Notes under the pieces: generated by a model
What the model was told of the DNA's origin: nothing
Databases searched by the model: none
Seen by the model: only the letters and a program-made list of their open reading frames with translations
Shown: in pieces, positions 49,997 through 64,000 of the stretch
Layout of the letters: each line of letters begins with the position of its first letter
Position numbering within the stretch: the first letter of the stretch is position 1
Position numbers and translations under genes: made by a program
Source: Evansella sp. LMS18
Lineage (GTDB): Bacteria; Bacillota; Bacilli; Bacillales; Salisediminibacteriaceae
NCBI RefSeq assembly: GCF_024362785.1
Contig: NZ_CP093301.1
Location: 4,588,001-4,652,000, forward strand
Direction of reading: 5' to 3'
Length of the DNA stretch: 64,000 nucleotides

Positions 49997-50134
49997 CTAG
50001 TATGATACAGAAGAACTTTTTTCTTTATTAGTTTCCAAAAATAAGCGGACTTCTTCTGGGCTCAATCCTATTTCATACGCCTCAGCCAGTAACTCTTTCC
50101 ATTCAGGATCTAATGCTAAAACCTGATCTTTCAT
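49997..50134 (-). CDS. SinI-family anti-repressor, orphan
   Basis: 45 aa, ATG with AGGGGGAG upstream and TAG stop. The sequence has the SinI dimerisation pattern LDPEWKELLAEAYEIGLSPEEVRLFLE, followed by a basic-Ser tail. SinI-type peptides bind SinR or SlrR and release biofilm and motility genes. No SinR-like repressor gene is adjacent, so this is an orphan copy, comparable to SlrA of B. subtilis. It converges on the EamA gene. Confidence 0.82.
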   Translation of the reverse strand: MKDQVLALDPEWKELLAEAYEIGLSPEEVRLFLETNKEKSSSVSY

Positions 50135-50398
50135 TTATAACTCCCCCTATTTGCTAATCTATATTTTTATGTGGTTTTGTAATGTCTGATTTGAGATAAC
50201 CTTGCTTTTGTTCGATATATTGAATATATCTGTATTATATAACTAGTTTATCTAGCCATAAACTACTGTTTTCGGTAAAAATCTATTATAAAGCATATAA
50301 TATCTTCTGGTTTCACCTTATATCTCTAATTTTCTTAATATTCAAACTTTTAATAGTGCTCTTTTGTGCTATATAGTGAATTCCCGACAAAAACAAAC

Positions 50399-50422
50399 AG
50401 CCCTCCATATAGTTGGAGGGCT
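50399..50422 (-). terminator. Terminator of the metallophosphoesterase gene
   Basis: Perfect stem AGCCCTCC/GGAGGGCT with TTTGTTTTTG following on the minus strand. It touches the stop codon. Confidence 0.88.
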
Positions 50423-51416
50423 AATTGTCTTTTTTTCTTAAAGTAAGGAAATTAATTTCCGGAGTATTTAAGAACCTGAAACGTAATAAAGGCCTCGGGC
50501 CACTGCTGCCCAGGCCGGTACTCACATATTGCTGGACTCCCCGGTGCTCCCACAATCCTTTCACCCTGTCCTGTGGCGGGAACAACCCCGAATTTTCGTA
50601 CATCGGTTCAGGAATAAAAAACGCTCCGTAAAAAGGAAGACGGAACTGCCCCCCGTGATAATGGCCTGCTAAAATAAGGTCATAATCCAGTAAATTATAC
50701 TGAGGGTCTTCATTTAATCTGTCAATTAACGCATCTACCACAGGATAATGTGTCAGCCCGATTAAAAATTCAGAATCACTTTCTGATTCGATGTGCGAAA
50801 ACTCCTCAATTAATTGTTTTAAATGAACCTGATCGTACTTTTCGTATACTTCTCTAAGCTGATATCTGCCTTCTACAACGGAAAGCTCTGCTTCCATATA
50901 TGATAAATCAAAGTCTGTAAAATGTAGACGTGACTGTCCTTTATCCACAGTGTAGATTGATTCAAGGAGATCCACTCCCCTGTCTTCCATCCCTTTAATG
51001 AATTCGTGTTTTTCGGAAACACCATTCTCGTTTATTACATAATTCGCTGTATCTGAATTTCCAGAAACATATAACGCTACATCTTTGTTTTCCATCCCCT
51101 CAATCAATGTATAGAAATTCTCATAATCAGGTGAGTCACTGTACTCATCCAGCATATCTCCAGTAAAGACAACAGCATCGTATTTCAGGTTGTTAACGAC
51201 GTTTAAAAGCCGACGCTGATTTTTCCCGAACTCCATATCATGCAAGTCAGTTATCTGTAGAATCTTATAGTTTTCAAATTCATCAGAAAGGTTCTCAATA
51301 AAGATGTCCTCACTTACTACTTTAACGCGGTTATTGTCCCAAATCGTGTAAACTGCCACTATAAATATAAAACACACAAACAGTAACAGGATAAACTTCC
51401 CCTTTTTTATGTTCAA
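50421..51416 (-). CDS. Membrane-anchored calcineurin-like metallophosphoesterase
   Basis: 331 aa from TTG (AAGGAG nine bases upstream). One N-terminal membrane segment (8-26). Metal-binding motifs in order: ITDLHD, FTGDMLDE, SGNSD (in place of the usual GNHE), LTHYP and GHYHGGQ. Next gene downstream of the lasso-peptide exporter, but separated by a terminator. Related to YkuE/YaeI-type enzymes; substrate unknown. Confidence 0.85.
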   Translation of the reverse strand: MNIKKGKFILLLFVCFIFIVAVYTIWDNNRVKVVSEDIFIENLSDEFENYKILQITDLHDMEFGKNQRRLLNVVNNLKYDAVVFTGDMLDEYSDSPDYENFYTLIEGMENKDVALYVSGNSDTANYVINENGVSEKHEFIKGMEDRGVDLLESIYTVDKGQSRLHFTDFDLSYMEAELSVVEGRYQLREVYEKYDQVHLKQLIEEFSHIESESDSEFLIGLTHYPVVDALIDRLNEDPQYNLLDYDLILAGHYHGGQFRLPFYGAFFIPEPMYENSGLFPPQDRVKGLWEHRGVQQYVSTGLGSSGPRPLLRFRFLNTPEINFLTLRKKDN

Positions 51417-51456
51417 TTTTGTCCGCTCCTTGCTTTGTTGCTATTGGTTGCTGCAT

Positions 51457-51489
51457 AAAACGCCGCATGTACTATTTAGGCGGCGTTTT
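51457..51489 (-). terminator. Terminator of the lasso-peptide operon
   Basis: Perfect ten-bp stem AAAACGCCGC/GCGGCGTTTT followed on the minus strand by ATGCAGC; the T tract is part of the stem. It lies 40 bp after the exporter stop. Confidence 0.85.
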
Positions 51490-51528
51490 ATAATTACAAA
51501 ACAAAAACACCCTCGCAAGCTCCTGGTG

Positions 51529-53322
51529 TCAATAAGTGGCTTCCATCTGTCTTCTCAGCAATGAGCCAAAAACGCTTCTTTTGTCATTTGCAAGCTGGCC
51601 GAATTCTCCTCTTTGGATTACCGCACCGTCTTCAAGAACTATTACCTGGTCCGCATTCCTGATCGTAGACAACCTGTGTGCAATAACAATGATCGTCATC
51701 TTCCCTTTTAATCTTTCCAGAGCTTCTTGAATTTTTGCCTCATTTTCCGTATCGAGGGAACTAGTTGCCTCGTCTAAAACTAGAATTGAAGGTTTTCTGA
51801 GAATTGCCCTTGCCAGCACTAACCGTTGTCTTTCACCGCCGGAAAGCTTTATCCCCCGGTCACCGATTAAGGAATCAAGGCCCTCAGGCAATTTCCTGAT
51901 AAACTCTGCAGCTGAAGAAAACTCCAACGCTTCCCACATTTCCGATTCTGTCGCATCTGGTTTTACAAGCAGCAGGTTCTCCCTGATACTGTCGTTAAAT
52001 AAGAAAGGATCCTGAGGAACATAACTAATCGCCCTTCTTAAAGAAATCAAATTCTCACTGGAAAGAGGCACACCATCAATGAGCACCTGCCCTTTCGCAG
52101 GCTTATTCAGCCCCATTAACAAATCAATCAGTGTACTTTTCCCTGCACCGGATTTTCCAACGACGGCGGTCATTTGGTTTCCAGGAATCGTTATATTAAT
52201 ATCTTTCAAAGCGTACGCCTCTTCATTATATTTAAAGGATACATTCCAGCAGGTAATATCTTTCCTTACCTGCATCGGCTTAATATCTCTCTTTTTAGAA
52301 AGGTCGAATTCTTTCGCTGACTTGCTTTCTTCCTGCATAGCTATAACCGCTTTAAATGCAGGCAGCATCGCGGCTATCTGCTCCATTGATCCCTGAATTC
52401 CTGCAACTCTCGGCCAGAGCCTTGAAAAAATCAGGATAATAAGCAGTAATTGTGCAGCTTGCGCATGAAACATGTTAACGGAGATGAATATAAAAGATGC
52501 TATTAACAGAGCTGAAGCTATCTTATAATACAACTGAGATTTCGTTTTAAGTTTCGTATATTCTACCTGCTCATGCTCCATCCGCTTTGTTATGGAACGA
52601 TACCACTCCATACGCGACTCTTCAAGTGTGTTGCTTTTAATATCTTTAATTCCGTTAATCTGATCGGTAATGCCACCCAGATAACTTCTCCCCAATTCAT
52701 AATTGCGGCTTCCTAAAGCCATAGATCGTTTCAGGAATTTTCTGTTAAAAAATAATAGGATGAGACCGCTAAGAAGTACAAAAATTGTGATTACTGGTGA
52801 TAACCAAAATGCAATTCCTATTTGAATAACGGTAAAAATCAGTGAAGCGATAAACTGTAAGAAAGAATGTGTTCCAGCACTTGCTCTGGCAATTTCTGCG
52901 GTCATTATATTGATTAAATCCGTCTTTCTGTTCTTTATATAAAAACGCCAGTCAGCATGAAGCAGCGCCTCATAGGTTTTTACTCGCATATGACGAAAAA
53001 ATCCGTGCTGAATTTTTGTTTCTCTAATTGTAATATGCCGTTGGAGTAAGTTTTGTAAAATACTTATCAGGACAAAAATAGCTAAAATGACCGGCAACCC
53101 TATTGAGGCAGGTATGCCCTGAAGAAATTCAAATATACCTGCCACAGGAGTTCCACCTGCGTCAATATTTACAATGCCTGTCATACTGATCATTGGAATT
53201 AAAAGCAAAATGCCAATCCCATCCAGTAAACTAATCAGTATCATAGCAAGGAGGTTAATGTAAAGAATCTTTCCTGCATAGGCATGTATTTGTTTTACAA
53301 AATAAAAAACAGGTTGTAACAT
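51529..53322 (-). CDS. Lasso-peptide ABC exporter (D protein)
   Basis: 597 aa; second ATG preferred (AGGAGG eight bases upstream; the first is at 53328). Fused exporter: six membrane segments in residues 1-310, then an ATP-binding domain with Walker A VVGKSGAGKSTL, signature LSGGERQRLVLA, Walker B ILVLDEATSSLD and H-loop IAHRLST. No peptidase domain, as expected since B2 removes the leader. It ends the operon and should export and give immunity to the mature lasso peptides. Confidence 0.92.
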   Translation of the reverse strand: MLQPVFYFVKQIHAYAGKILYINLLAMILISLLDGIGILLLIPMISMTGIVNIDAGGTPVAGIFEFLQGIPASIGLPVILAIFVLISILQNLLQRHITIRETKIQHGFFRHMRVKTYEALLHADWRFYIKNRKTDLINIMTAEIARASAGTHSFLQFIASLIFTVIQIGIAFWLSPVITIFVLLSGLILLFFNRKFLKRSMALGSRNYELGRSYLGGITDQINGIKDIKSNTLEESRMEWYRSITKRMEHEQVEYTKLKTKSQLYYKIASALLIASFIFISVNMFHAQAAQLLLIILIFSRLWPRVAGIQGSMEQIAAMLPAFKAVIAMQEESKSAKEFDLSKKRDIKPMQVRKDITCWNVSFKYNEEAYALKDINITIPGNQMTAVVGKSGAGKSTLIDLLMGLNKPAKGQVLIDGVPLSSENLISLRRAISYVPQDPFLFNDSIRENLLLVKPDATESEMWEALEFSSAAEFIRKLPEGLDSLIGDRGIKLSGGERQRLVLARAILRKPSILVLDEATSSLDTENEAKIQEALERLKGKMTIIVIAHRLSTIRNADQVIVLEDGAVIQRGEFGQLANDKRSVFGSLLRRQMEATY

Positions 53323-53334
53323 ATCCATTTCCTC

Positions 53335-54501
53335 CTAGGTTACTGAATACTTCCGTGTTTTTCTCCATCCCCATAAAAACGGCCGGAGCGGGAAATAAAG
53401 AAAGTGCAGCGGCTTTGGCAGGAGTAGTGTTTCGGCGTCTTCTGGGTAAGGAAATAAAAAGCTTGCTTTCATCAACAATTTCTGTGGCAGAGACATCGTA
53501 CTCAACAAATATTTTTCGTGGTACTCTGAAACATCTGCTGGGACTGGGTCAGTATGTAAGTTGACCATGTTTTCAAAATAAAAAACAGCTCCCTGTGCCA
53601 GCTTGTAGTATTTATCATTTTCCAGAATGGATTTCATTCCCTCCATCTGCTTACTGTTCAATAAAGTGGACGATAACACCACTGATTGACCTAAAACTGG
53701 CCGCATATAATAATTTTGTGAAAGTTTTAATGCAGCTGGGAAATCTGAATGCTTTTTTAAGAGCTGATGTATATCCAGCAGCCAGCGGAGACGGGACCAG
53801 CCGTGGCGTGCTCCGTGTGCAGCCAGGTATATTAACAGATCATCTTCTCCCAACATATAAACCGGGTACTTTGTAAGAGAACTCATCGATTTCCTGTCCC
53901 ATAAATCAGAAAAGGAAGGCTCTATTCCAGGGCCAGGATGTAATCTCCAATGGATCTCAAGCTTGATACCTTTTGAAGAATGGTAATAAGCGACGTGGTG
54001 ATGCCGCCATTTCCAATCATTCAAAACAGTCTGTATATAATCATCCTTTACATATCCTTCTTCAGCCAATAGCTTCTCCACGTTTAAAAGATCATTTACA
54101 GGGATTAAAAAGTCAAGATCGCTGCATGTTCTCCTCGAGATGTCACCATACAACTCATGGCCGATCATCGGCCCTTTTAAGAAAAGGACACGGATATCAT
54201 TTTCAGTTAAGAATTTACTAACACTCTCCATTTCGGCTGTTAGCTGAAGCATCTGATAAGTATTAGTCTGATATAATTGAAATAATTGCCGTGTTACATG
54301 TACTGGTATGAATTCTGGCAATTGCTTTGCTTTAGGATAAAGGACTGGATATAACCGGTGATGAATGCTCAGATCAATGAATTTATCCCAGTTGATATCT
54401 TTTACCTGTTCTGTGCTGATCGGGTCATCATTTAGTAATTTTATAATTAAGTTCAGTTCTCTCGGAATACGACCTAATTCGATAGCCATATCTTTACCCA
54501 T
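53335..54501 (-). CDS. Lasso-cluster nucleotidyltransferase (N protein)
   Basis: 388 aa; GGAGAAAG upstream. Nucleotidyltransferase_5-type fold: LFLKGPMIGHELYGD, then SDLDFLIP with the metal-binding Asp pair, and a later LEIHWRL. The same gene type occurs in paeninodin-like clusters; in the pseudomycoidin system it was reported to modify the phosphorylated C-terminus with sugar. It overlaps B2 by eight bases and precedes the exporter by 12 bp, so it is integral to the operon. Confidence 0.88.
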   Translation of the reverse strand: MGKDMAIELGRIPRELNLIIKLLNDDPISTEQVKDINWDKFIDLSIHHRLYPVLYPKAKQLPEFIPVHVTRQLFQLYQTNTYQMLQLTAEMESVSKFLTENDIRVLFLKGPMIGHELYGDISRRTCSDLDFLIPVNDLLNVEKLLAEEGYVKDDYIQTVLNDWKWRHHHVAYYHSSKGIKLEIHWRLHPGPGIEPSFSDLWDRKSMSSLTKYPVYMLGEDDLLIYLAAHGARHGWSRLRWLLDIHQLLKKHSDFPAALKLSQNYYMRPVLGQSVVLSSTLLNSKQMEGMKSILENDKYYKLAQGAVFYFENMVNLHTDPVPADVSEYHEKYLLSTMSLPQKLLMKASFLFPYPEDAETLLLPKPLHFLYFPLRPFLWGWRKTRKYSVT

Positions 54502-54967
54502 AACTTTCTCCTTCGTTTCCTGAGGAAAGTTTTTTTGCGAATTTGCTCACTACAGTGTAGTTTTCCATACCTTCTGCACCGGATATATAATAAGGTCCGC
54601 TCCTTAACCAAGCATGTGCAGCAAATGCACCATTTTCGTCCTTACCGGTCCCTAAGTAAAGCGTACTTTCAACCCCTCGTTTTTCAAGCATTTTCAAAGC
54701 AGCAATCGCTTTGACGAGGCACTGGCTCTCCCAGAAGGTGTAACGGCTCATCATATGCACTGCCTGGGATACTTGCAAAAGTGTTTTCCGTTCATGCAAT
54801 TTCGGGAAATAGTTCGTTTCTTCCATATGTTCACCAAGGGAAGGAGCAACCTTGGAAAAAGGCAGCATTTTTAATATTCGGGCCCAGGCTAAGTATATGT
54901 AAGCTTCAAACAGCATGATCTTCATCTGCCTCTCTATCCTGAGAAAAGATTTGGCTTTATTAATCAT
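54494..54967 (-). CDS. Lasso leader peptidase (B2, transglutaminase-like)
   Basis: 157 aa; ATG with AAGGAAGGAG upstream rather than the first ATG at 54988, which has no ribosome site. Transglutaminase-fold protease domain with catalytic Cys83 in FWESQCLVKA and His118 in AAHAWL. It cuts the leader from the precursor. N-terminal helical part (LRIERQMKIMLFEAYIYLAWARIL) is typical of the family. Confidence 0.92.
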   Translation of the reverse strand: MINKAKSFLRIERQMKIMLFEAYIYLAWARILKMLPFSKVAPSLGEHMEETNYFPKLHERKTLLQVSQAVHMMSRYTFWESQCLVKAIAALKMLEKRGVESTLYLGTGKDENGAFAAHAWLRSGPYYISGAEGMENYTVVSKFAKKLSSGNEGESYG

Positions 54968-54992
54968 ACTCTCCTTCCTTTCTGTCATTCTA

Positions 54993-55283
54993 TTATTCTA
55001 TCGCTGCCAGTTCTTCATTCACCAGCAATTCAAGAAAATGTAAAACTTGTTCCTCACACTGCCCTCTTTCTACATCATATTCTTCCAGCATGGCATTAAC
55101 GACGTATTCAAGAGCGGCAGGCTGTTCAATCAGCTCCCAAATACGGCCACCGATTTCACCAAGATTATAGTACTTGCCCTTATTTATGCTTAACATTACT
55201 TTCTCGCCGTCCATATCACTGACAATATTGCCTGGCCTTTGGCTGATTACTGTATTTAAAGACATCTTTTGGCTTTTGATCAT
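54993..55283 (-). CDS. Lasso RRE protein (B1, PqqD-like)
   Basis: 96 aa; AAGGAGG before the ATG. Winged-helix leader-binding domain: NIVSDMDGEKVMLSINKGKYYNLGEIGGRIWELIEQP, then the C-terminal helix bundle. It recognises the leader (Trp-x-x-Pro-x-Leu in both precursors) and presents it to B2. It overlaps the kinase stop codon by four bases (ATGA). Confidence 0.93.
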   Translation of the reverse strand: MIKSQKMSLNTVISQRPGNIVSDMDGEKVMLSINKGKYYNLGEIGGRIWELIEQPAALEYVVNAMLEEYDVERGQCEEQVLHFLELLVNEELAAIE

Positions 55284-56209
55284 ACGATTACCTCCTTATT
55301 AATAGAAGAAAGGATAAGTGCAGTTAGCTCGTCTGCAGTAAAACGAGTCTTCGGTCGCTGCAACTGATACAGGTCCAGCTTATTAACCATGGCTGTACAT
55401 GTTCTAAAATGCCACTCCATCAATCCTGCAGGCTTAAGGAAAAAATTGCGGTACGTATGATAATACAGTTTATGCAGCCGCTCAAGCTGTTCGATAGGCC
55501 GGATGTCAACATCTTCCTTTTCTGTTATCACTAACTCAAATATCCCGGCAAGGGGAAGAGGTTTTGCTGCAAATTGAGCATGAACCGGGACAGCAAACTT
55601 TGTTTCCCGGTCAACAACCGGCCTGTAAGAGGAAGAATCCATGCCAAACTCGGTCAGGCTCTCCTGCCAGAGCTTTTGCTGTGGATAAGCAAGCACTGCC
55701 ATTGGTATATTATCTTCCGTTAAAGTAACTGGAATAACATCGTCACTAATAAGCCTGTAGCCTGTCTTTAAAAGCGCGGAAGCAGTTGTGGATTTTCCTG
55801 CTCCGGAATCCCCCACAATTGCATATGCTTTCCCATTGATTTCGAGTGCTGAGCCGTGTAAAGGGAGAATTCCTCTTTGCATTAATACGGCACCCATGCA
55901 CGTACCTAATAAATAGAGACGGAGCTGGTCCTCCTGAACTCCTTTAAATGGAGAAACGAAAATTTCTTTTCCTTTTTCGATTAAAAAAATCCCTACTTCC
56001 GGCAGATTAAATAAAATAAACTTGCTGGATATGAAGAATAAATCGTCAGGGCTGGAGTAAGTTTCCCATTTCTCATTTAAATCCTTAAAAGTGATTAACA
56101 CATCGGCTGTATTTTCCGCAAGATTTACAACGGGAAGTTCAGGAAAGGAAATTTCGCTAAAAACATTGAGGCCAAACGCTTTGTATAATGAGCTTGAAGA
56201 TGTTTTCAT
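55280..56209 (-). CDS. HPr-kinase-like lasso kinase (K protein)
   Basis: 309 aa; ATG with GGAGG five bases upstream chosen over a TTG at 56242. HPrK-type core: PLHGSAL (His118), Walker A GDSGAGKST (133-141) and SDDV (Asp156-157). In paeninodin-type systems this kinase phosphorylates the C-terminal Ser of the precursor; both precursors here end in Ser. Translationally coupled to B1. Confidence 0.9.
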   Translation of the reverse strand: MKTSSSSLYKAFGLNVFSEISFPELPVVNLAENTADVLITFKDLNEKWETYSSPDDLFFISSKFILFNLPEVGIFLIEKGKEIFVSPFKGVQEDQLRLYLLGTCMGAVLMQRGILPLHGSALEINGKAYAIVGDSGAGKSTTASALLKTGYRLISDDVIPVTLTEDNIPMAVLAYPQQKLWQESLTEFGMDSSSYRPVVDRETKFAVPVHAQFAAKPLPLAGIFELVITEKEDVDIRPIEQLERLHKLYYHTYRNFFLKPAGLMEWHFRTCTAMVNKLDLYQLQRPKTRFTADELTALILSSINKEVIV

Positions 56210-56244
56210 ATGTTCCTCCATCATCTCTCTGTTTATTAACAATT

Positions 56245-56271
56245 AGCCCTCATACTTGTGGTATAAGGGCT
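56245..56271 (-). terminator. Hairpin between precursor A2 and the kinase gene
   Basis: AGCCCTTATAC..GTATGAGGGCT, an 11-bp stem with one mismatch and a five-base loop, 33 bp after the A2 stop. A T-poor tail (AATTGTTAATA) suggests partial termination or mRNA stabilisation, giving more precursor than enzyme. Confidence 0.55.
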
Positions 56272-56303
56272 GAAAGAATAATTACTCAACCCGATAAAAT
56301 TAA

Positions 56304-56468
56304 TTAACTACCAACATTTTTCCTGCAACTAGCATTGGACTGACCATCATGCGTTTCACTTTTTCCTTCTGAAGCGTCAAAACAGTCAGGGTTCGCATTC
56401 CCAGGGCCATTCATTGTCATGCTTACGTTAAGTACTTCAAGTGATGGATTATTCCATTTCTTTTTCAT
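56304..56468 (-). CDS. Lasso-peptide precursor A2
   Basis: 54 codons. The ATG overlaps the stop of cyclase C2 (ATGA). Leader residues 1-19 have Lys2-4, Trp5, Pro8, Leu10, Glu11-Val12-Leu13 and end Thr18-Met19, with Thr at the required -2 position. The core starts Asn20-Gly21-Pro22-Gly23 and has Asp28 as core residue 9, so the ring would be nine residues as in paeninodin (which also has Gly-Pro-Gly here and Pro8-Asp9). If cut after Asn20, Gly1-Asp8 would close an eight-residue ring. The core is long (34-35 residues), has Cys at core 10 and 29 and ends in Gly-Ser. Confidence 0.88.
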   Translation of the reverse strand: MKKKWNNPSLEVLNVSMTMNGPGNANPDCFDASEGKSETHDGQSNASCRKNVGS

Positions 56469-58411
56469 CTTTTCTCACCTCCTTTCAAGAATTTGTATAC
56501 TATTAAACTTCTGGTAAGGATTTTAAAATTATAATCAAATATATACTCATTTTTTGGTGGGTTATCAAACTTTTCGATTGCAGAGTCAATTACATTCATG
56601 TCAAGAATATCAGCAGCCATCGAATCCGACTGAAGACTCTTTAATTCATCAATAAATTCTCCCCATCTTCTTTTCATTCGGTGAATTGTGTCTGCTCCCT
56701 GCATTCCCCTGTATTTCCTGTTCAGTCTGACAGAATCGGGAAGTATTCCTTTTGTAGCTCTTCGGATCAGAGACCTTTCCATTCCTGCCTTTACGTATTG
56801 CTCTTCTGGAATGGATAAACAATACTGGATGACTCTGATATCATTTGTCGGGTCTCTGTTCCATAGTCCATATCGTAAGGAAAGCTTTGTATCTGCCGTT
56901 CCGCTTTTATTCCAAGGATATAGGCTTTGATAATATTGCCTTCGGTAATGATCTGGGTCATTAACAGCCTCGCCTTTATAATCCATTCCGTAATGTTCAA
57001 GTTTTTCAAACACCTTTGTCTTTTTTGCGAGACCGGGTTTAATAAATACAGTATAAGGATTGTCACTGCCTTTATTAGCTGCAGACATGAAGGCCTTTTT
57101 AGCTAAAAAAGGGAGTACCACCTTTTTACCGGTGTTGTGAAATGTACAATAAGCATCAACTTCCTGGTACAATTTGAGCCACCTTAATCGCCTTAAAAGG
57201 GAAATATAATAGTTATATGTTAATTTATAGGAGCCCCAGGATATGGAATGGTTTCCTCTTGCTCCATTTAACATTACCTTTATCCCGTCTTTTTCGGCTT
57301 CTTCATTGATCCCTTTTAACCAGTAGGTGTTCTCAAAAAATTTATATGGCATTTCCATCACTTGTAGGAAGTCATCAACTTCTGTGTATGGATCTTTTCC
57401 ACAGAAATTCAGATATTTATCTTTGACATTTCCGGTATGTTTAACTGTTTCCTTTATAAACGGCCGTTCATCGGGCAGGTAATATGCTTCTGTAAAATCT
57501 TCAAAATCATCTTCCGGTATATAACTGTAAGTATGCAATTGTTTGTTTTGAAGTTTCAGTTCACTTGCTGCAAAACCGACTACTGTTCCGGAATCAAGTC
57601 CACCGCTAAGATGGGAACCGACCTTTCCGTGTGTCCGCATTCTGTCGTTTACCGCTCTTTGAAAGACCTCCCGAAAACCTTCTTCATAATCACTGTCGGA
57701 TGAAAGAAACAGTTTCCCCGCAGAACCAGCTGTAACATATCTTTTCAATGAAACATTGGACTTACTGACAGTAATACTGTGAGAAGGCGGGAGCTGCAAT
57801 ATTTCCTTATAAGGTGTGGCATTCATATCCACTGCTTCAACCGGTCCGGGGATGGCAAGAAACTCAGCCAGCCAGTCTTCGTTTATGTTTCTTGTTATAA
57901 AAGGTAATGAAAGTAACGGTTCAATCAATGTGGAAAATACAAACTTATCTCCGCTGGCGTGATAATAAAGCGTCCTGCTGCCTGAAAAATCCCTTGCTGC
58001 GAAAATCTTTTTATTTTTCTCATCCCATATTGCAAAGGCTAAGTCACCAATCAAATGTTTAGGACATTCTTCGCCAAATTTACTATAAGCCAGTAAAATA
58101 AGCTGGCTGTCCGACATAGTATTTAATAGTGATTTATCTTTGATGTTTAACTTTTCAATTACCTCTTGCCGGTTATCTATTATTGCATCTGCGGTAATGG
58201 CCAGCTGCTTTTCATAGTCAAAGCATGGTAATTGTTCGTTGATTGATTCAGGAGTTATCCACTGAGCGTGGCACCCAAGGAACGCTTTTTCCTTATGCCA
58301 CGTATCAACCGAATCAGCCGGAAAACGCTTAAAGCCGCTCATTAATATGTTCGAATGTTCAATTGAAATCGGGTTATCATTAAAATGAACAAGGCCGGTG
58401 ATCGCGCTCAT
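56465..58411 (-). CDS. Lasso cyclase C2 (asparagine-synthetase-like)
   Basis: 648 aa; AGGAGG before the ATG. AsnB fold: N-terminal domain starts MSAITGLVHF with Ser in place of the glutaminase Cys2, as in lasso cyclases, and has FAARDFSGSRTLYY. Synthetase domain has the ATP loop SHLSGGLDSGTV. It should adenylate the Asp side chain of A2 and form the isopeptide with the N-terminus. Ends in ATGA overlap with A2; own promoter upstream. Confidence 0.93.
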   Translation of the reverse strand: MSAITGLVHFNDNPISIEHSNILMSGFKRFPADSVDTWHKEKAFLGCHAQWITPESINEQLPCFDYEKQLAITADAIIDNRQEVIEKLNIKDKSLLNTMSDSQLILLAYSKFGEECPKHLIGDLAFAIWDEKNKKIFAARDFSGSRTLYYHASGDKFVFSTLIEPLLSLPFITRNINEDWLAEFLAIPGPVEAVDMNATPYKEILQLPPSHSITVSKSNVSLKRYVTAGSAGKLFLSSDSDYEEGFREVFQRAVNDRMRTHGKVGSHLSGGLDSGTVVGFAASELKLQNKQLHTYSYIPEDDFEDFTEAYYLPDERPFIKETVKHTGNVKDKYLNFCGKDPYTEVDDFLQVMEMPYKFFENTYWLKGINEEAEKDGIKVMLNGARGNHSISWGSYKLTYNYYISLLRRLRWLKLYQEVDAYCTFHNTGKKVVLPFLAKKAFMSAANKGSDNPYTVFIKPGLAKKTKVFEKLEHYGMDYKGEAVNDPDHYRRQYYQSLYPWNKSGTADTKLSLRYGLWNRDPTNDIRVIQYCLSIPEEQYVKAGMERSLIRRATKGILPDSVRLNRKYRGMQGADTIHRMKRRWGEFIDELKSLQSDSMAADILDMNVIDSAIEKFDNPPKNEYIFDYNFKILTRSLIVYKFLKGGEKR

Positions 58412-58493
58412 GTTATCCTCCTATAAGTAAATAAAATCAAAGCTATTCTTTATCAAGTTCTCCTTATTCGTTATATAGAACATCCATAAAATA

Positions 58494-58522
58494 AAAATAC
58501 CACCTTTATGTATTAGTGTCAA
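58494..58522 (-). promoter_or_regulatory. Sigma-A-type promoter for the C2-A2-K-B1-B2-N-D unit
   Basis: On the minus strand: TTGACA (58522-58517), 17-bp spacer, TATTTT (58499-58494). The -35 is perfect and the spacing ideal. It lies between the terminator after A1 and the start of C2, about 83 bp before the ATG. Confidence 0.7.
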
Positions 58523-58605
58523 TTAGTAAAAAGTTTAAATTATTCGATAATAAATGATAAAAAGTACTGTTGTTTCTTGGACGTTGTAATCATGCAGGAA
58601 ATAAT

Positions 58606-58632
58606 AAAAAGCCCTCCGGAAAAGGGCTTTTT
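58606..58632 (-). terminator. Terminator after precursor A1
   Basis: AAAAAGCCCTTTTCCGGAGGGCTTTTT on the minus strand, a stem of nine or more pairs with a T tract, 30 bp after the A1 stop. It makes C1-A1 a transcription unit of its own. Confidence 0.9.
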
Positions 58633-58661
58633 ATGTATTAGTGGAAAACAAAATTCCTAAA

Positions 58662-58805
58662 CTAACTGTCCTCTCCCCATGTCAAATCACTAAACCTCGT
58701 CCCTGCTGGGAAGCTGTCATCAATGAAATCTCCTGGTTTCGTATTTGCCATCGTCATCCCAACGTCCAGTACTTCGAGATTTGGTTTCTCCCATTCCTTT
58801 TTCAT
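58662..58805 (-). CDS. Lasso-peptide precursor A1
   Basis: 47 codons, 14 bp after the C1 stop, GGGAGGTG upstream. Leader residues 1-19 match A2 in Lys2-Lys3, Trp5, Pro8, Leu10-Glu-Val-Leu13 and Met17-Thr18-Met19, with Thr at -2. The core is residues 20-47 (28 aa) beginning Ala-Asn-Thr-Lys-Pro-Gly-Asp. The only Asp/Glu at core 7-9 is Asp7, so a seven-residue ring is predicted; the next acids are at 10 and 11. Tail has Phe, Arg, Phe and Trp candidates for plugs and ends Glu-Asp-Ser. Confidence 0.88.
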   Translation of the reverse strand: MKKEWEKPNLEVLDVGMTMANTKPGDFIDDSFPAGTRFSDLTWGEDS

Positions 58806-58819
58806 GCATTCACCTCCCT

Positions 58820-60757
58820 TCAAGTAAATTTCTTTAAGAATCTGTGAACAACCACACTGCGCATTAAAAATCTGCAGTCTGGATTGACAGCATTCTCGGA
58901 TTTTGGTGTATCAGAAGTATTGTTTATTGCCTCCCTTAATCTTTTCGTGTTGATAAATTCTTTTGTTAATGGATCTGACACAATTCTCCTCGCTTCAAAT
59001 AAAAGTGCCTGCCATTCGCCCTTCATTCTGTGCACCCAGTCAGCTCCCTGGACACCTCGTATTCTTTGATTGAGTCGAATTTCGTCAGGCAGCAAATCCT
59101 TTGCAGCTCTTCGGATAAGGGCTCTGTCCATCCCATTTTGGACATATTGATTTTCAGGTAGTGACAAACAAAACTTTACTACCCGAAGATCATTTGTAGG
59201 GTCTCTTTTCCACAGCTTATGTTGGAGCGACAGCTTTGAAGAAACTGTGCTGCTTGCATTCCAATGGAACACCTCTTCAAAATGGTTTCTTTTATGCCTG
59301 TATATATCCTGGCTAGCGAACCAGCCAGTTTCGTCTAAACCATAATCCTTTAACTTTTCGTAAATATTCGTTCTGGCTGCAAAGGCAGGGTTTATTAATG
59401 AGGGAAGCGGACTCTCAGCTTTCCCGGATAAACCGTGAAATGATGGCAAAGCTAGTTTTACTATCGATGGTACTCGCCTGAGCCTGGCACCGCCTGCTAT
59501 TTTTGAATACTGATCAAGCTCCTGGAAAAGCTTTATCCATCTAAGCCTCTTTAACAGAACGGCATAAAAATCAGGTGCAGATCCCCAGGATACAGTTAAA
59601 TTACCCCTCCCGCCGTTTAGAAGGACACCTGCCCCTTCATTATGTGCGGCTTCAAAGATTCCTTTTATCCAGAAGGAGTTCTCAAAAAACTTATATGGCA
59701 TTTCAAGGGTTTCCAAAAACTCATCGATAACTGAATAGGGATCCTCGCCTTCAAAGTCTGAAATATGAGCGTTTACACCTCCTATGTATGATGCTGTTTT
59801 TTTAATAAATTCCGTTTCATCAGGCATTAAGTTTCCGGGCGTATAATCTTCAAAATCTGCCGGCGGAACATAACTGAATGTATACAACTGCCTATTCTGC
59901 TTTTTTAACAGTTTTGCCGCATAACTTGCTGTAATACCAGAATCAAGCCCCCCGCTAAGCTGTGCCCCAACATGTTTATGGGTTCTCAGCCTGGATTTTA
60001 CTGCTTTACTGAAAACTTCATGAAAGGCTTCAATATAGTCACCATCTGACTTTAATTTCAGCTTTTTACCCGTCCGCAAGCTGCAGTATTTCTTCATTTT
60101 TATACTTCCTTTATGAACAGTTATGCTGTGGGCAGGCGGGACCTGATAAATACTCTTATACGGAGTGAGGGAGGCATCAACTGTATCAATCACTGTTGTT
60201 ATGGCTAAAAATTCAGCCAGCCATTGTTCATTAAGTTCTATTTTAATATACGGAAGACCCAGTATAGGCCTTATCGTTGTGCAAAAAGAGAATTGATGAT
60301 TAGCGTAGTTATAGTAAAGCGTCCGGCTTCCGGAAAAGTCCCTTGCTCCAAACAGTTTTTGCTCTCTTTCATCCCAAACTATAAATGCAAAATCACCGAC
60401 CAGATATTCAGGAACTGTTTCACCCCATTTTTCGAAGCCTAATAAAATGAGCTCTGTATCTGAGGTCTCATCCCGGCTTCTTAATGGAATTTGCAATCTG
60501 TTAAAGAGCTCTTCCCGATTATCAATAATAGCATCGGCAGTAACAGCTAACTTCCGTTGAGGATCATAATGCGGGTCCTGCTCGCCAATAGATTCGGGTG
60601 TAATCCATTGTCTGATACTCCCCAAGAACATATTATTCTTGTGCCAAGACTGAATATCATCTACCTGGTAACTCTGTAAGCCATTTAACAATATGCTTGT
60701 ATACTCGGGGTTAATATAAGACTCGTCCTCCCGAAAAATGCCAGCAATCGCACTCAT
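58820..60757 (-). CDS. Lasso cyclase C1 (asparagine-synthetase-like)
   Basis: 645 aa; GGGAGG before the ATG. Paralogue of C2 over the full length: MSAIAGIF start with Ser instead of Cys2, FGARDFSGSRTLYYN, AQLSGGLDSGITAS, and a shared LEMPYKFFENSFWIKGI. It precedes A1, so each precursor is paired with its own cyclase. Ring closure on A1 is the expected job. Confidence 0.92.
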   Translation of the reverse strand: MSAIAGIFREDESYINPEYTSILLNGLQSYQVDDIQSWHKNNMFLGSIRQWITPESIGEQDPHYDPQRKLAVTADAIIDNREELFNRLQIPLRSRDETSDTELILLGFEKWGETVPEYLVGDFAFIVWDEREQKLFGARDFSGSRTLYYNYANHQFSFCTTIRPILGLPYIKIELNEQWLAEFLAITTVIDTVDASLTPYKSIYQVPPAHSITVHKGSIKMKKYCSLRTGKKLKLKSDGDYIEAFHEVFSKAVKSRLRTHKHVGAQLSGGLDSGITASYAAKLLKKQNRQLYTFSYVPPADFEDYTPGNLMPDETEFIKKTASYIGGVNAHISDFEGEDPYSVIDEFLETLEMPYKFFENSFWIKGIFEAAHNEGAGVLLNGGRGNLTVSWGSAPDFYAVLLKRLRWIKLFQELDQYSKIAGGARLRRVPSIVKLALPSFHGLSGKAESPLPSLINPAFAARTNIYEKLKDYGLDETGWFASQDIYRHKRNHFEEVFHWNASSTVSSKLSLQHKLWKRDPTNDLRVVKFCLSLPENQYVQNGMDRALIRRAAKDLLPDEIRLNQRIRGVQGADWVHRMKGEWQALLFEARRIVSDPLTKEFINTKRLREAINNTSDTPKSENAVNPDCRFLMRSVVVHRFLKKFT

Positions 60758-60846: not shown

Positions 60847-62001
60847 TTAACTGACTGGCTGCCGGTTAATAGTTTCCAGACAAGCGATCAAAGCAAGGCT
60901 TTCCGGAATTTCTACATCGTCAAAAGTGATTATTTCCCCTTCTTCGACTTGTCTCTTCATAACGGCATTAACAAGTATGCCAATAGGTACATGGTTGTTA
61001 TCTGTCGTTAATTTAACTGCTTCCCCTCTTACCTGGAAGCTCCCTATCCCCTTTTTAATCTCCTCTCCAGGTTTTAGCGTTCTTTTAGCAATTGCGGCGA
61101 CACTGACAGAAGGATTTTCTCCATTATTTAAAAGTACTCCTCCTCCGTTAATGACTCTTCTAATCGTTTTCACCACTTCTAAATGGCAAAAATGGTAGTT
61201 TTGTAAGATTGTATAGTATGGACCTTCTCCCATTTTAAAGTAACGCAATGCATCCTTCTGCCTTGGTTCATGCGTAGCTGTTATAAATACACCTGGCGGG
61301 GCTTTTGGTGCAACTACATATTCACAAATAGGATAACCTAAACGGGCTGCCTCTTCGGCCAATTCTTCCCCAATTGCGTTTAAATCGTCAGAGCTGGGGG
61401 ATAAAAGACCATCGACAGCGATTCCAGCTCCCAGACCATTGGCAACTAATGCCTGCTCTATTTGTACTTTAGTTCCATCTGTAAAAGAAGTAGTCATATC
61501 GATCCGTAATCCATTTTTATTGGACCAAAATTCCATGTCTTCCTGTGTAGGGTCCAGGTTAAGAAAGCCTTTTATATTTCCATAAACTAATGGTTTAAAG
61601 CCCATTTGAATAACATTTTCGTGTAAAGTGGCCAAACAGCCTGGCTGATCCCCTTCAGCCTCAGTGATAAACCCTCTTTTAGCAAAATAAGAACCTGTGG
61701 TGACTTGCAGCTCGGCATTCATAGTAACAACAGGCAAGGATGCTTTTATTGCTCTGTCGATTACCTCCGTTCCATATAAAACGTCACCGCTGCATTCGAC
61801 AATCAAATCGCAGCTTGCAATAAACTCCTCTATGGAATTTGTCAGAACTTCTGAAAAAGGATAATCATTCATAGTATTAATATCCCGGCGGGTTAGTACT
61901 TTAGCCAGTTCTAAATCTGCTTGCTTTACCACTTCGACTGCTATGCCTTTACCGATTAAACCAGTTCCTGCAATACCCACTCTGGTAATTTTTTGGTTCA
62001 T
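60847..62001 (-). CDS. Homoserine-dehydrogenase-like NAD(P) oxidoreductase with C-terminal SAF domain
   Basis: 384 aa; AGGAGG before the ATG. N-terminal Rossmann motif GIAGTGLIGKGIA, then LIVECSGDVLYG; C-terminal SAF domain (LKPGEEIKKGIGSF, VEEGEIITFDDVEIPES). Proteins of this design are found in polysaccharide clusters, where they may act on an activated sugar or amino acid derivative. It lies between the lasso locus and the rfb genes; the rfb side is more likely its home. Confidence 0.75.
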   Translation of the reverse strand: MNQKITRVGIAGTGLIGKGIAVEVVKQADLELAKVLTRRDINTMNDYPFSEVLTNSIEEFIASCDLIVECSGDVLYGTEVIDRAIKASLPVVTMNAELQVTTGSYFAKRGFITEAEGDQPGCLATLHENVIQMGFKPLVYGNIKGFLNLDPTQEDMEFWSNKNGLRIDMTTSFTDGTKVQIEQALVANGLGAGIAVDGLLSPSSDDLNAIGEELAEEAARLGYPICEYVVAPKAPPGVFITATHEPRQKDALRYFKMGEGPYYTILQNYHFCHLEVVKTIRRVINGGGVLLNNGENPSVSVAAIAKRTLKPGEEIKKGIGSFQVRGEAVKLTTDNNHVPIGILVNAVMKRQVEEGEIITFDDVEIPESLALIACLETINRQPVS

Positions 62002-62180
62002 CTGTTAAACCTCCTGGTTAAAGTTTATTCTCAATATAAAAGTACAAGATAAAAAAATAGACTTATTTGCTTTAATGAAACAAGGCCGTCTGATTCCTCA
62101 TTATAATTTTTGCAACCGAACTCATTATTTCTTCCATATAAAAGCTTCTTCTGATCTAATAAATACAATAAATATATTTA

Positions 62181-62729
62181 CTATATTTGAAAGACCTCTG
62201 CACTGCTAAGAGCATGGTGATTCTTGTCTTTTTCTGATAAAACCGGATCTGTCGTCGGCCAGGTAATCCCAATTTTTGGATCATTCCACATAATTCCCCT
62301 GTCTAACTCTGGGGAGTAGTATTCATCAACCTTATAAACAACCTCGGTATTTGGTTCAAGAGTACAGAAACCGTGAGCAAATCCTTTAGGTACGAGTAGC
62401 TGCTTCTTATTATTTTCGCTTAGTTCAATACCAAACCACCTGCCAAAGTCAGGAGATTCTCTTCTAATATCAACTACTACATCAAAAACCGCTCCCTTTA
62501 TTACCCTGACTAATTTACCCTGGGACATGGGTTTTAACTGGTAATGCAAACCACGGATTGTTCCTCTCTCAACAGATAAAGAATGGTTATCCTGTACAAA
62601 AGTATTTTCTATTCCATAGTTTTTTAATCCCATGTAATTGTAAGTTTCCATAAAAAAACCCCGTTCGTCCTGAAAGACACTCGGCGTTATCACTTTAACT
62701 TCTTCAAATATTGTATTAGTAACGTTCAA
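62181..62729 (-). CDS. rfbC: dTDP-4-dehydrorhamnose 3,5-epimerase
   Basis: 182 aa from a TTG with AGGTGA six bases upstream (a GTG at 62744 would add five residues). Cupin epimerase with GFFMETYN, the catalytic-His segment RGLHYQ, and VPKGFAHGFCTLE. Third enzyme of dTDP-L-rhamnose synthesis. It follows rfbB by 29 bp. Confidence 0.95.
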   Translation of the reverse strand: MNVTNTIFEEVKVITPSVFQDERGFFMETYNYMGLKNYGIENTFVQDNHSLSVERGTIRGLHYQLKPMSQGKLVRVIKGAVFDVVVDIRRESPDFGRWFGIELSENNKKQLLVPKGFAHGFCTLEPNTEVVYKVDEYYSPELDRGIMWNDPKIGITWPTTDPVLSEKDKNHHALSSAEVFQI

Positions 62730-62758
62730 ATTAATCACCTTCACAATTTTCGTATTTT

Positions 62759-63736
62759 CTATAGTTTAACTGTTCTTAATTTTTCCCACCACTGCCTGTT
62801 GTTCACATACCACTCAATCGTTTCTTCCAGCCCATTATCAAAAATGTAGAATGGCTCCCATCCTAATTGGCTTTTTATTTTCGACGCATCAATCGCATAT
62901 CTGCGGTCATGTCCTTTTCTGTCTTCAACATATTTTATTAGTGTTTCCGGTTTATTTAGATACCTCAATATTTCTTTTACAATGTCCATATTTTTCTTTT
63001 CGTTATGTCCGCCAATATTGTATACTTCCCCAGCCTCTCCATTATGAAGCACCAAATCAATGGCGCGGCAATGATCTTCTACATGGAGCCAGTCCCTGAC
63101 ATGCAGGCCATCCCCATAAACAGGAAGCTCTTTGTCATCCAAGGCATTAGTAACCATTAAAGGGATCAGTTTCTCCGGAAAATGGAAAGGGCCGTAGTTA
63201 TTTGAACATCGGGTAATATTTACGTGCATTTTATAAGTTTCAAAATAAGACTTAACTAATAGATCAGCAGCCGCTTTACTGGCTGAATATGGACTGTTAG
63301 GGGCCAATGGTGTTTCCTCGGTGAAGTAGCCGTCCTCACCAAGACTGCCGTATACTTCATCCGTTGAGATTTGCACGAATCTCTTTACATTGTTTTGCAG
63401 TGAAGCGTGTAGCAGCGTCTGAGTTCCCAGTACATTTGTTTTTATGAAAATATCTGGTTCCTCTATGCTTCTGTCAACATGGGATTCAGCTGCGAAATTG
63501 ATTAGTGCATCGGGAGTATGCTCTTTAATTAAAGAGTTAATAAGACCTCGGTCTATGATATCCCCTTGAACAAACCAGTAATTTGGGTTCTCTTTTATAC
63601 TTGTTAAATTTTCAAGGTTTCCTGCATAAGTCAATTTATCAAGATTAATTATTTTATATTCAGAATATTTATTTAGCATGTATCTTACGAAATTACTTCC
63701 AATAAAGCCTGCTCCGCCTGTAATTAGAATAATCAT
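62759..63736 (-). CDS. rfbB: dTDP-glucose 4,6-dehydratase
   Basis: 325 aa; GGAGG before the ATG. Extended SDR with TGGAGFIGSNFVRY, the STDEVYG active-site strand with catalytic Asp-Glu, and YSASKAA. Second step of dTDP-rhamnose synthesis, needing NAD. Between rfbA and rfbC, spaced by 20-30 bp. Confidence 0.96.
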   Translation of the reverse strand: MIILITGGAGFIGSNFVRYMLNKYSEYKIINLDKLTYAGNLENLTSIKENPNYWFVQGDIIDRGLINSLIKEHTPDALINFAAESHVDRSIEEPDIFIKTNVLGTQTLLHASLQNNVKRFVQISTDEVYGSLGEDGYFTEETPLAPNSPYSASKAAADLLVKSYFETYKMHVNITRCSNNYGPFHFPEKLIPLMVTNALDDKELPVYGDGLHVRDWLHVEDHCRAIDLVLHNGEAGEVYNIGGHNEKKNMDIVKEILRYLNKPETLIKYVEDRKGHDRRYAIDASKIKSQLGWEPFYIFDNGLEETIEWYVNNRQWWEKLRTVKL

Positions 63737-63756
63737 CTATCTGACCTCCGGATATT

Positions 63757-64000
63757 TTATCTATTTACTGCCAGTGCTGCTGTTTTGTGTTTCTCTTCTG
63801 CTAATCGAAGCAAGTATTGTCCATATTCACTTTTCTTTAAAGGCTCTGCCAAATCAAGTAACTGGGACGTAGTAATATATCCTTTGTTAAAAGAAATTTC
63901 CTCTAGGCAGGCAACTTTTTGACGCTGCCGTTTTTCAATAATCTCAATAAATTGAGATGCTTCAAGAAGTGATTCATGTGTGCCTGTATCAAGCCATGCA
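63757..64000 (-). CDS. rfbA: Glucose-1-phosphate thymidylyltransferase, C-terminal fragment
   Basis: The last 80 codons are present; the gene continues past the right window edge. The segment [18 protein letters not shown] followed by [18 protein letters not shown] is the conserved end of RfbA/RmlA. It makes dTDP-glucose from glucose 1-phosphate and dTTP. Heads the rfbA-rfbB-rfbC order seen here. Confidence 0.93.

Follow-up and report, generated by a model that had tools for sequence, protein, structure and literature searches.

A paeninodin-like lasso peptide operon of Evansella sp. LMS18 with two cyclase-precursor modules on one shared gene set

We analysed a stretch of 64,000 nucleotides (hereafter the window) from Evansella sp. 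LMS18 (contig NZ_CP093301.1, positions 4,588,001 to 4,652,000 of the forward strand), whose genome is a single contig of 4.9 Mb, and found it to carry a paeninodin-like lasso peptide operon. The operon comprises nine intact genes on the minus strand at 51529-60757, in the order C1-A1, C2-A2, K, B1, B2, N, D, where C is an AsnB-like lasso cyclase, A a precursor, K an HPrK-like kinase, B1 a PqqD-like RiPP (ribosomally synthesized and post-translationally modified peptide) recognition element (RRE), B2 a transglutaminase-like leader peptidase, N a nucleotidyltransferase-like protein and D an ATP-binding cassette (ABC) exporter. According to the scheme that we favour, at a probability of roughly 0.78, one shared chassis (K, B1, B2, N and D) would serve two matched and swappable cyclase-precursor cassettes, and the products would be closed between Ala1 and Asp10 in A1 and between Asn1 and Asp9 in A2. 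The open reading frames (ORFs), strand, order and ends given in an earlier note on this DNA were all found again.

Two modules on a single chassis

The earlier note had regarded the layout as unusual, which a broader comparison ruled out. The order C-A-C-A before one K-B1-B2-N-D set was found in 22 of 89 distinct loci from a contig scan and a family sample, a set mostly chosen by likeness to C1 (the top 80 among 185 candidates). A second sample spanned the order and was taken independently of C1; of its 397 genomes, 90 had the precursor family, and 22 of these had C-A-C-A-K; the spacing of matches, judged by eye, had suggested 26 two-module genomes among the 90, of which gene content confirmed 22. 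The two samples overlap, and their union holds 31 distinct two-module loci, so that the layout is more than chance. One cyclase per cluster is usual, if not strictly defining, for the paeninodin/pseudomycoidin subfamily, and the paeninodin cluster itself has one cyclase and one precursor; the window has two cyclases, like the 31 distinct loci. Three loci were dropped as copies (L108, L109 and L111, of L041, L070 and L043; loci are designated here by L numbers and genomes by G numbers), as were one identical precursor (L071) and, for the transporter tree, six loci without a D of over 500 bits.

The chassis genes, described as single in the earlier note, proved to be so in general: all two-module loci, in either sample, have a single called copy of each of K, B1, B2, N and D. 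The lasso functions were confirmed with profile models, NCBIfam models being passed by A1, A2, B1 and B2, and Pfam models by C1, C2 and D. B1 (54993..55283, minus strand, as all features below) scored 132.2 bits with NF033536 (lasso_PqqD_Bac, cut-off 80), B2 (54494..54988) scored 104.5 bits with NF033537 (lasso_biosyn_B2, cut-off 33) and 71.7 bits with PF13471, and D (51529..53328) scored 43 bits with PF00664 and 116.6 bits with PF00005. A kinase and a nucleotidyltransferase of the paeninodin/pseudomycoidin kind had also been proposed, in agreement with K (55280..56242), which passes PF07475 (Hpr_kinase_C, 37.2 bits, cut-off 33.3), and with N (53335..54501, an NTP_transf_5 protein), which passes PF14907 (202.2 bits, cut-off 31.2). 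The K residues H, K, D and D are present, by eye, in LHGSA, GAGKST and SDD.

The RRE family NF033536 has a single match in the genome, which is B1, and the leaders of A1 and A2 are both 19 residues long, with the motif WxxPxLEVL and Thr at -2. Given one RRE match and equal leader frames, sharing of B1 and B2 is the simple reading. Together with the single chassis, these observations lend indirect support to the earlier proposal that the leader-reading parts are common to both precursors. Against this, the leaders of A1 and A2 are only weakly closer to each other within a locus than across loci (identity p 0.037, BLOSUM p 0.15).

In the proposed scheme, one chassis with two cyclase-precursor cassettes would form a two-product paeninodin-like lasso operon. 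B1 would bind the WxxP leader that A1 and A2 have in common, in line with the binding of the leader by the RRE, which brings the precursor to the leader peptidase (PMC13381572; PMC5067487; these and all papers below are cited from excerpts). K would phosphorylate the C-terminal Ser of both precursors, its probable target, as a kinase does ahead of maturation in a described system (PMC9266682). B2 would cleave after the residue that follows Thr-2, each core would be closed by its own neighbouring cyclase, N, whose kind has been linked to one or two hexoses on the phosphate (PMC9266682), would help to decorate the phosphate, and D would export both products. These roles of K, N, B1 and B2 we infer by analogy with the characterised paeninodin and pseudomycoidin systems. 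Both cores of the window end in Ser, as do all first and all second cores of the two-module loci (31/31 each) and 108 of 110 distinct cores.

Paeninodin of Paenibacillus dendritiformis C454 shares with the window the kinase acting on the C-terminal Ser and separate B1 and B2 proteins (PMC9266682, PMC12427821, PMC5067487), and its core, AGPGTSTPDAF... with Asp9, is like some module-1 cores of the relatives; it differs in its nine-residue ring. Pseudomycoidin of Bacillus pseudomycoides has both K and N, its C-terminal Ser being phosphorylated and then hexosylated (PMC9266682, PMC12427821), but its core is AGPGKRLVDQVF... with Asp9, and the excerpts mention no second cyclase. No two cyclase-precursor pairs on one lasso chassis were found in the open-access literature, covered without the primary paeninodin and pseudomycoidin papers, which makes this a weak absence.

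A number of precursors with the WxxP...Thr leader were observed without an adjacent called cyclase. Those of L228-L232, L234-L237 and L239 lie 22-33 kb from another match, and further ones occur in L238, L240-L242, L204, L222, L211, L213, L200/L077, L195/L062 and L051. Their cores mostly start with Lys followed by Gly or Phe, are Pro- or Gly-rich, and mostly end in DS or GS. On their sequences, such precursors may be linear clients of the lasso chassis, distinct from the YxxP-type precursors of linear polyphosphorylated peptides (LPP). The LPP systems found beside paeninodins in Bacillota share with the window the kinds of kinase, N and exporter and a place near polysaccharide genes (PMC13381572). 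They differ in their YxxP leaders (YxxPxVLxHQxIxFETxxS), their own RRE and a signal-peptidase-like protease (PMC13381572), whereas both leaders of the window are WxxP and lack the YxxP motif; no match to the SpI-like peptidase of LPP was found among the nine genes of the locus, the part of the genome that was searched. In L209 and L214, small ORFs starting MKMAYxAPEVKEHQMIQFETAQSWNC, near the LPP leader motif, are found on the same stretch as a lasso operon.

Some variants of the gene order were also seen. In L161 (G279), a second Cys-type C-A pair stands behind D and not ahead of K, so a cassette can occupy either end of the operon. L155 and L185 have an N-terminal-only cyclase copy of about 245 residues behind D, with no precursor called beside it, and L179 (G345) has one cyclase and then two near-identical precursors 257 bp apart. 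The chassis is rearranged in L085, L088, L093 and L094, with B2-D or B1-B2-N-D before C-A-K-B1, and three of these four loci have two RRE genes.

Two cyclase lineages and their cores

C1 (58820..60757, 645 residues; Pfam Asn_synthase 88 bits, GATase_7 75.8 bits) and C2 (56465..58411, 648 residues; 104.7 and 72 bits) are 47% identical over 646 columns, and the ATP-binding motif SGGLDS is kept in both. At the columns that are at least 95% conserved in 180 cyclases, C1 deviates twice (I72V, Y108F) and C2 three times (L84V, W112F, A245G). The fold search was made for C1 only; its AlphaFold2 model has a mean predicted local distance difference test score (pLDDT) of 89.7, and the top PDB matches were TsnB9, asparagine synthetase and beta-lactam synthetase. 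One result that weighs against the assignment is that both enzymes remain under the curated cut-off (525 bits) of the lasso cyclase model NF033535, with 363.9 bits for C1 and 394 bits for C2. The cyclases of L022, L070 and L107 likewise miss it (391.6-401.1 bits), so that the cut-off seems unfit for this branch.

The earlier note had described the cyclase as duplicated. A recent local duplication was rejected, since C1 and C2 sit in different parts of the cyclase trees; on these trees they are instead two old lineages brought together. In the tree of 108 cyclases (111 in the first set, less three of under 600 residues), the second-position cyclases, together with four single ones with like cores, require one label change, the mean of shuffles being 22.8. 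In the tree of 180 cyclases, built after removal of four short cyclases and of repeats from the order sample, the label "core with at least two Cys" also requires one change (shuffle mean 34.7). The first-position cyclases are spread over a number of other groups, and every group has a core type of its own: ASTxxGPxTDEAY, ANPxxGxxLD and its relatives (ANTKPGDFID in the window), LGxxGxxxD, and the paeninodin-like AGPGxxxPD.

From the pairing of genes, the agreement of the trees, and an exchange of a cyclase domain with its precursor (described below), we infer that each cyclase is matched to its core. In the first set, all 111 cyclase rows have a precursor as the next gene. In the order sample, the same holds, with called precursors, for 111 of 117 cyclase ORFs, and the remaining six comprise two split ORFs, the two partial copies of about 245 residues behind D, and two loci whose precursor was missed by the search model. 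The claim of the earlier note that the ring-forming enzyme is specific to each core has indirect support from the C1 tree and from the joint replacement of a C2 domain and A2, but neighbouring genes also travel together by simple linkage, so that strict specificity is a prediction.

Two kinds of evidence count against such matching. C and A are adjacent, so their joint inheritance may be plain linkage, and in the caulosegnin cluster, which also has several precursors on one set, the same enzymes make all three products, caulosegnins I-III, with rings of eight and nine residues (PMC13352647); the window differs in having a cyclase for each precursor. It could accordingly be argued that C1 and C2 are redundant, either of them closing either core, and that the extra cyclase came by linkage with a useful precursor, a reading with which L179, where one cyclase precedes two near-identical precursors, would agree. 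We consider it improbable, as the precursor stands next to its cyclase in nearly all rows of both samples, both enzymes have been kept for long (47% identical, with conserved columns intact), and the exchange between L070 and L112 took the synthetase domain together with the precursor and left the N-terminal domain of C2 behind. Decay of one module, with only one lasso peptide made, was also considered: C1 of the window lies on a long branch (0.72, against a median of 0.34), and the locus of the sister species is without the module. However, the reading frames of C1 and A1 are intact and preceded by GGAGG-like sites, conserved residues are kept, and the C-terminal Ser is in place; this alternative is very unlikely in our judgement.

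Predicted rings of the two products

A2 (56304..56468, 54 residues; NF033524 57.8 bits, cut-off 27) has its leader at 56412-56468, numbered from Thr at -2, and its predicted core, NGPGNANPDCFDASEGKSETHDGQSNASCRKNVGS, at 56307-56411. Its ring is predicted to close between Asn1 and Asp9, with two Cys behind it. All 31 two-module loci have a second core with Asp9 and two or more Cys and a first core free of Cys. The position of the Cys pair behind the ring makes a tail disulfide (class IV) possible, and the A2 pair may form one. Asn as ring residue 1 has a described parallel in metanodin, which differs in coming from an uncultivated gammaproteobacterium and in its unrelated core (PMC12670498).

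A1 (58662..58805, 47 residues; NF033524 45.1 bits, cut-off 27) has its leader at 58749-58805, numbered in the same way, and its predicted core, ANTKPGDFIDDSFPAGTRFSDLTWGEDS, at 58665-58748. With regard to an acid at residues 7-9, A2 has Asp9 and A1 has Asp7, but the acid that is conserved in the A1 class is residue 10, a point beyond the earlier note. When 110 distinct cores were numbered from Thr-2, which is present in all 110 precursors, Asp9 was found in 68 and Asp10 in the other 42, of which 34 have no acid at 7, 8 or 9; the length of the leader frame does not differ between the two classes. Among 111 cores of the order sample with their own cyclase, the acid is at residue 9 in 89 and at residue 10 in 22, three of which (L224, L226 and L227) also have an acid at 8.

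The Asp10 trait requires two changes over 108 cyclases (lowest of 100 shuffles, 26) and three over 180 (lowest of 100 shuffles, 40), and such low numbers indicate a stable property of cyclase clades. The unrooted tree could be read as one gain of the trait in a clade of 85 rows, with its loss in the 31 rows of the LGxxG group inside that clade, and with L221 as a separate case. A1 of the window falls in the Asp10 clade and is predicted to close a ten-residue ring between Ala1 and Asp10; the ring sizes, like the cyclase specificity and the disulfide of A2, are predictions of this analysis.

The characterised rings have seven, eight or nine residues (PMC13352647), and rings of more than nine have been called too flexible (PMC12427821). 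The search of the literature described above, with the same coverage, found no ten-residue lasso ring, again a weak absence. A further point that weighs against the proposed scheme is that no column of the cyclases was found to split Asp10 from Asp9 enzymes; the best one, residue 276 (Ile/Val versus Val), is not strict.

The A1 class would have a nine-residue ring if B2 cut one residue later, with Thr at -3 and Asn2 closing the ring. This shift would agree with the ring sizes just mentioned, would place the invariant Asp at residue 9, and would align ANTKPGDFID without gaps with the LGxxGxxxD cores. We nevertheless find it doubtful, since Thr is at -2 in 110 of 110 precursors with an equal length of the leader frame in both classes, and since 17 of the 31 two-module loci pair an Asp10 first core with an Asp9 second core, both of which one B2 must cut. 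The 42 Asp10 cores start with A in 37 cases, L in three and G in two, all of them frequent as residue 1 of Asp9 cores, whereas residue 2 is mostly S or N; Ser1 occurs in two cores of the order sample (L169 and L211). Moreover, the Asp9 core ASRNWGKYDEGY (L096) and the Asp10 core ASTVWGPYTDEAY share residues 1, 2, 5, 6 and 8, with a length difference of one residue directly before Asp, so that shifting both would leave an eight-residue ring in L096.

Closure of A1 at Asp7 would give a seven-residue ring, the size that xanthomonins reportedly have. Asp7 occurs in the core of the window and in that of L027, whose cyclase is the nearest in the 180-row tree, but this position is occupied by Asn in L028 and by Glu in L024, 34 of the 42 Asp10 cores lack an acid at 7-9, and Asp10 is present in 42 of 42. 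This alternative is highly improbable, and Asp7 was rejected as the ring residue of A1 because it is not conserved in the class.

As to the ten-residue ring, we lean slightly towards the broader view that Bacillota hold a large class of lasso peptides with such rings, closed from an N-terminal Ala, Leu, Gly or Ser to Asp10 by essentially one cyclase clade, A1 included, that the chassis of the window would make the A1 product in parallel to a nine-ring lasso peptide with two Cys, and that the cyclase-precursor cassette, or the synthetase domain with the precursor, would be the unit of diversification.

Cassette exchange among relatives and its implications

In the scheme proposed here, cassettes would be gained, lost and replaced by recombination, and the chassis would stay. 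When the module-1 core class of 22 two-module loci is mapped on the C1 tree, three changes suffice, which is the minimum. The chassis tree, built from concatenated K, B1, B2, N and D, needs 10 and the C2 tree 11, and neither does better than shuffled labels, of which 70 and 156 of 300, respectively, gave numbers as low. For 31 loci, the C1 tree again gives the minimum, four changes. In the transporter tree of 83 loci, 49 of the 55 C1-only loci form one group without two-module or C2-only loci (99 in the Shimodaira-Hasegawa-like approximate likelihood ratio test, SH-aLRT), a pattern suggestive of many first cassettes having been added to a C2-type operon.

Three results weigh against a free exchange over an unchanging chassis. 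In the 31-locus set, the chassis tree requires 13 changes, with one of 300 shuffles as low, and the C2 tree 14 (eight of 300); the chassis thus keeps some core-class signal, and the exchange is not free. When C2 and C1 are compared in the correlation of their distances with those of the chassis, the bootstrap interval of the difference, -0.10 to 0.33, spans zero. Finally, L207, L213 and L219 show a replacement, since their B1 proteins are 91-94% identical while their cyclases are 46-55% identical in each half and their cores are of three types; yet L213 and L219 also diverge in D and in the later part of N, so that the chassis is not wholly constant there.

Individual pairs of loci mark the borders of such events. 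The window and L107, of a sister species in the same genus, share 89% DNA identity at 60875-63903 and 79% at 50001-56020, and their flanking genes match (a deoxythymidine diphosphate (dTDP)-sugar epimerase, a DRL-type oxidoreductase and a metallophosphoesterase). In the window, C1-A1 sits between the DRL-type oxidoreductase gene and C2; L107 is without C1-A1 and has at that place two glycosyltransferase genes and one gene without a Pfam match. L183 and L202 are collinear from C through D at a similarity of about 0.7-0.9 per 100 bases, and L202 is without the C2-A2 module.

L070 and L112 are mostly 0.86-1.00 similar per 100 bases inside the operon, with dips to 0.78 at the lowest between A1 and C2 and to 0.72 in the first stretch of C1, and the DNA ahead of C1 is unrelated. 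A low tract (0.47-0.73) runs from about residue 275 of C2, near SGGLDS, through A2 to about residue 105 of K. At the protein level, the N-terminal part of C2 is 94% identical and the C-terminal part 54%, and the N-terminal part of K is 42% identical and the C-terminal part 97%. As judged from this profile, the tract from the start of the C2 synthetase domain through A2 into K has been replaced. The N-terminal part of K is also the more variable one in pairs without exchange, such as L059/L061 (0.66 versus 0.89), so that its share in the tract may be ordinary. In several pairs (e.g. L070/L112, L022/L206 and L059/L061), variability was observed to be far higher in the first 110 residues of K than in the remainder, and it is in this portion that exchange tracts end; it may read the core or tail of the precursor.

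Regarding the layout of the genes, A1 starts 14 bases past C1, and C2 and A2 overlap by their stop and start codons, respectively. For K, the ATG at 56209, which by eye lies behind GGAGG, is a more probable start than the listed TTG at 56242. A terminator-like hairpin with a 14-pair stem and the tail TATTTCCTGC lies behind A1 (58604..58634), a promoter-like site, by consensus match only, lies ahead of C2 (58494..58522; TTGACA-17-TATTTT, with TG before the second hexamer), and a hairpin between A2 and K (56245..56271) is a possible partial terminator. Neither kind of site exceeds the expectation from shuffles, with seven terminator-like sites in the whole region (8.6 expected) and 26 promoter-like sites in the window (26.7 expected). 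With perfect stems only and plain shuffles, terminator hairpins were found in the A1/C2 gap in eight of 22 two-module loci and in the A2/K gap in four; with so few hairpins behind A1, a transcript of its own for module 1 is possible but not general. The operon adjoins a dTDP-sugar epimerase gene (window 60847-62744), and glycosyltransferase genes lie beside the operon of L107 (L107:170-5140), in agreement with reports of such clusters near capsule loci (PMC13381572).

The proposal that leader reading is shared and that cyclases are matched has good support from the comparison of loci, and the predicted ten-residue ring of A1 is the boldest open point. The change of cassettes over a constant chassis would make the leader a common plug and the cyclase a part matched to its core. 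If the cyclases are core-matched, and if one RRE, peptidase, kinase and exporter serve both precursors, nature already runs the plug-in scheme that engineers seek: the leader and chassis would be held, and the 2-kb cassette, or the synthetase domain and core alone, would be exchanged, with L070/L112, L183/L202 and the window/L107 marking natural cut points. A ten-residue ring, if true, would break the rule of seven to nine residues and alter the limits set for precursor finders. The uniform second cores, with Asp9 and a Cys pair, beside the variable first cores raise the question of whether the two products have different jobs.

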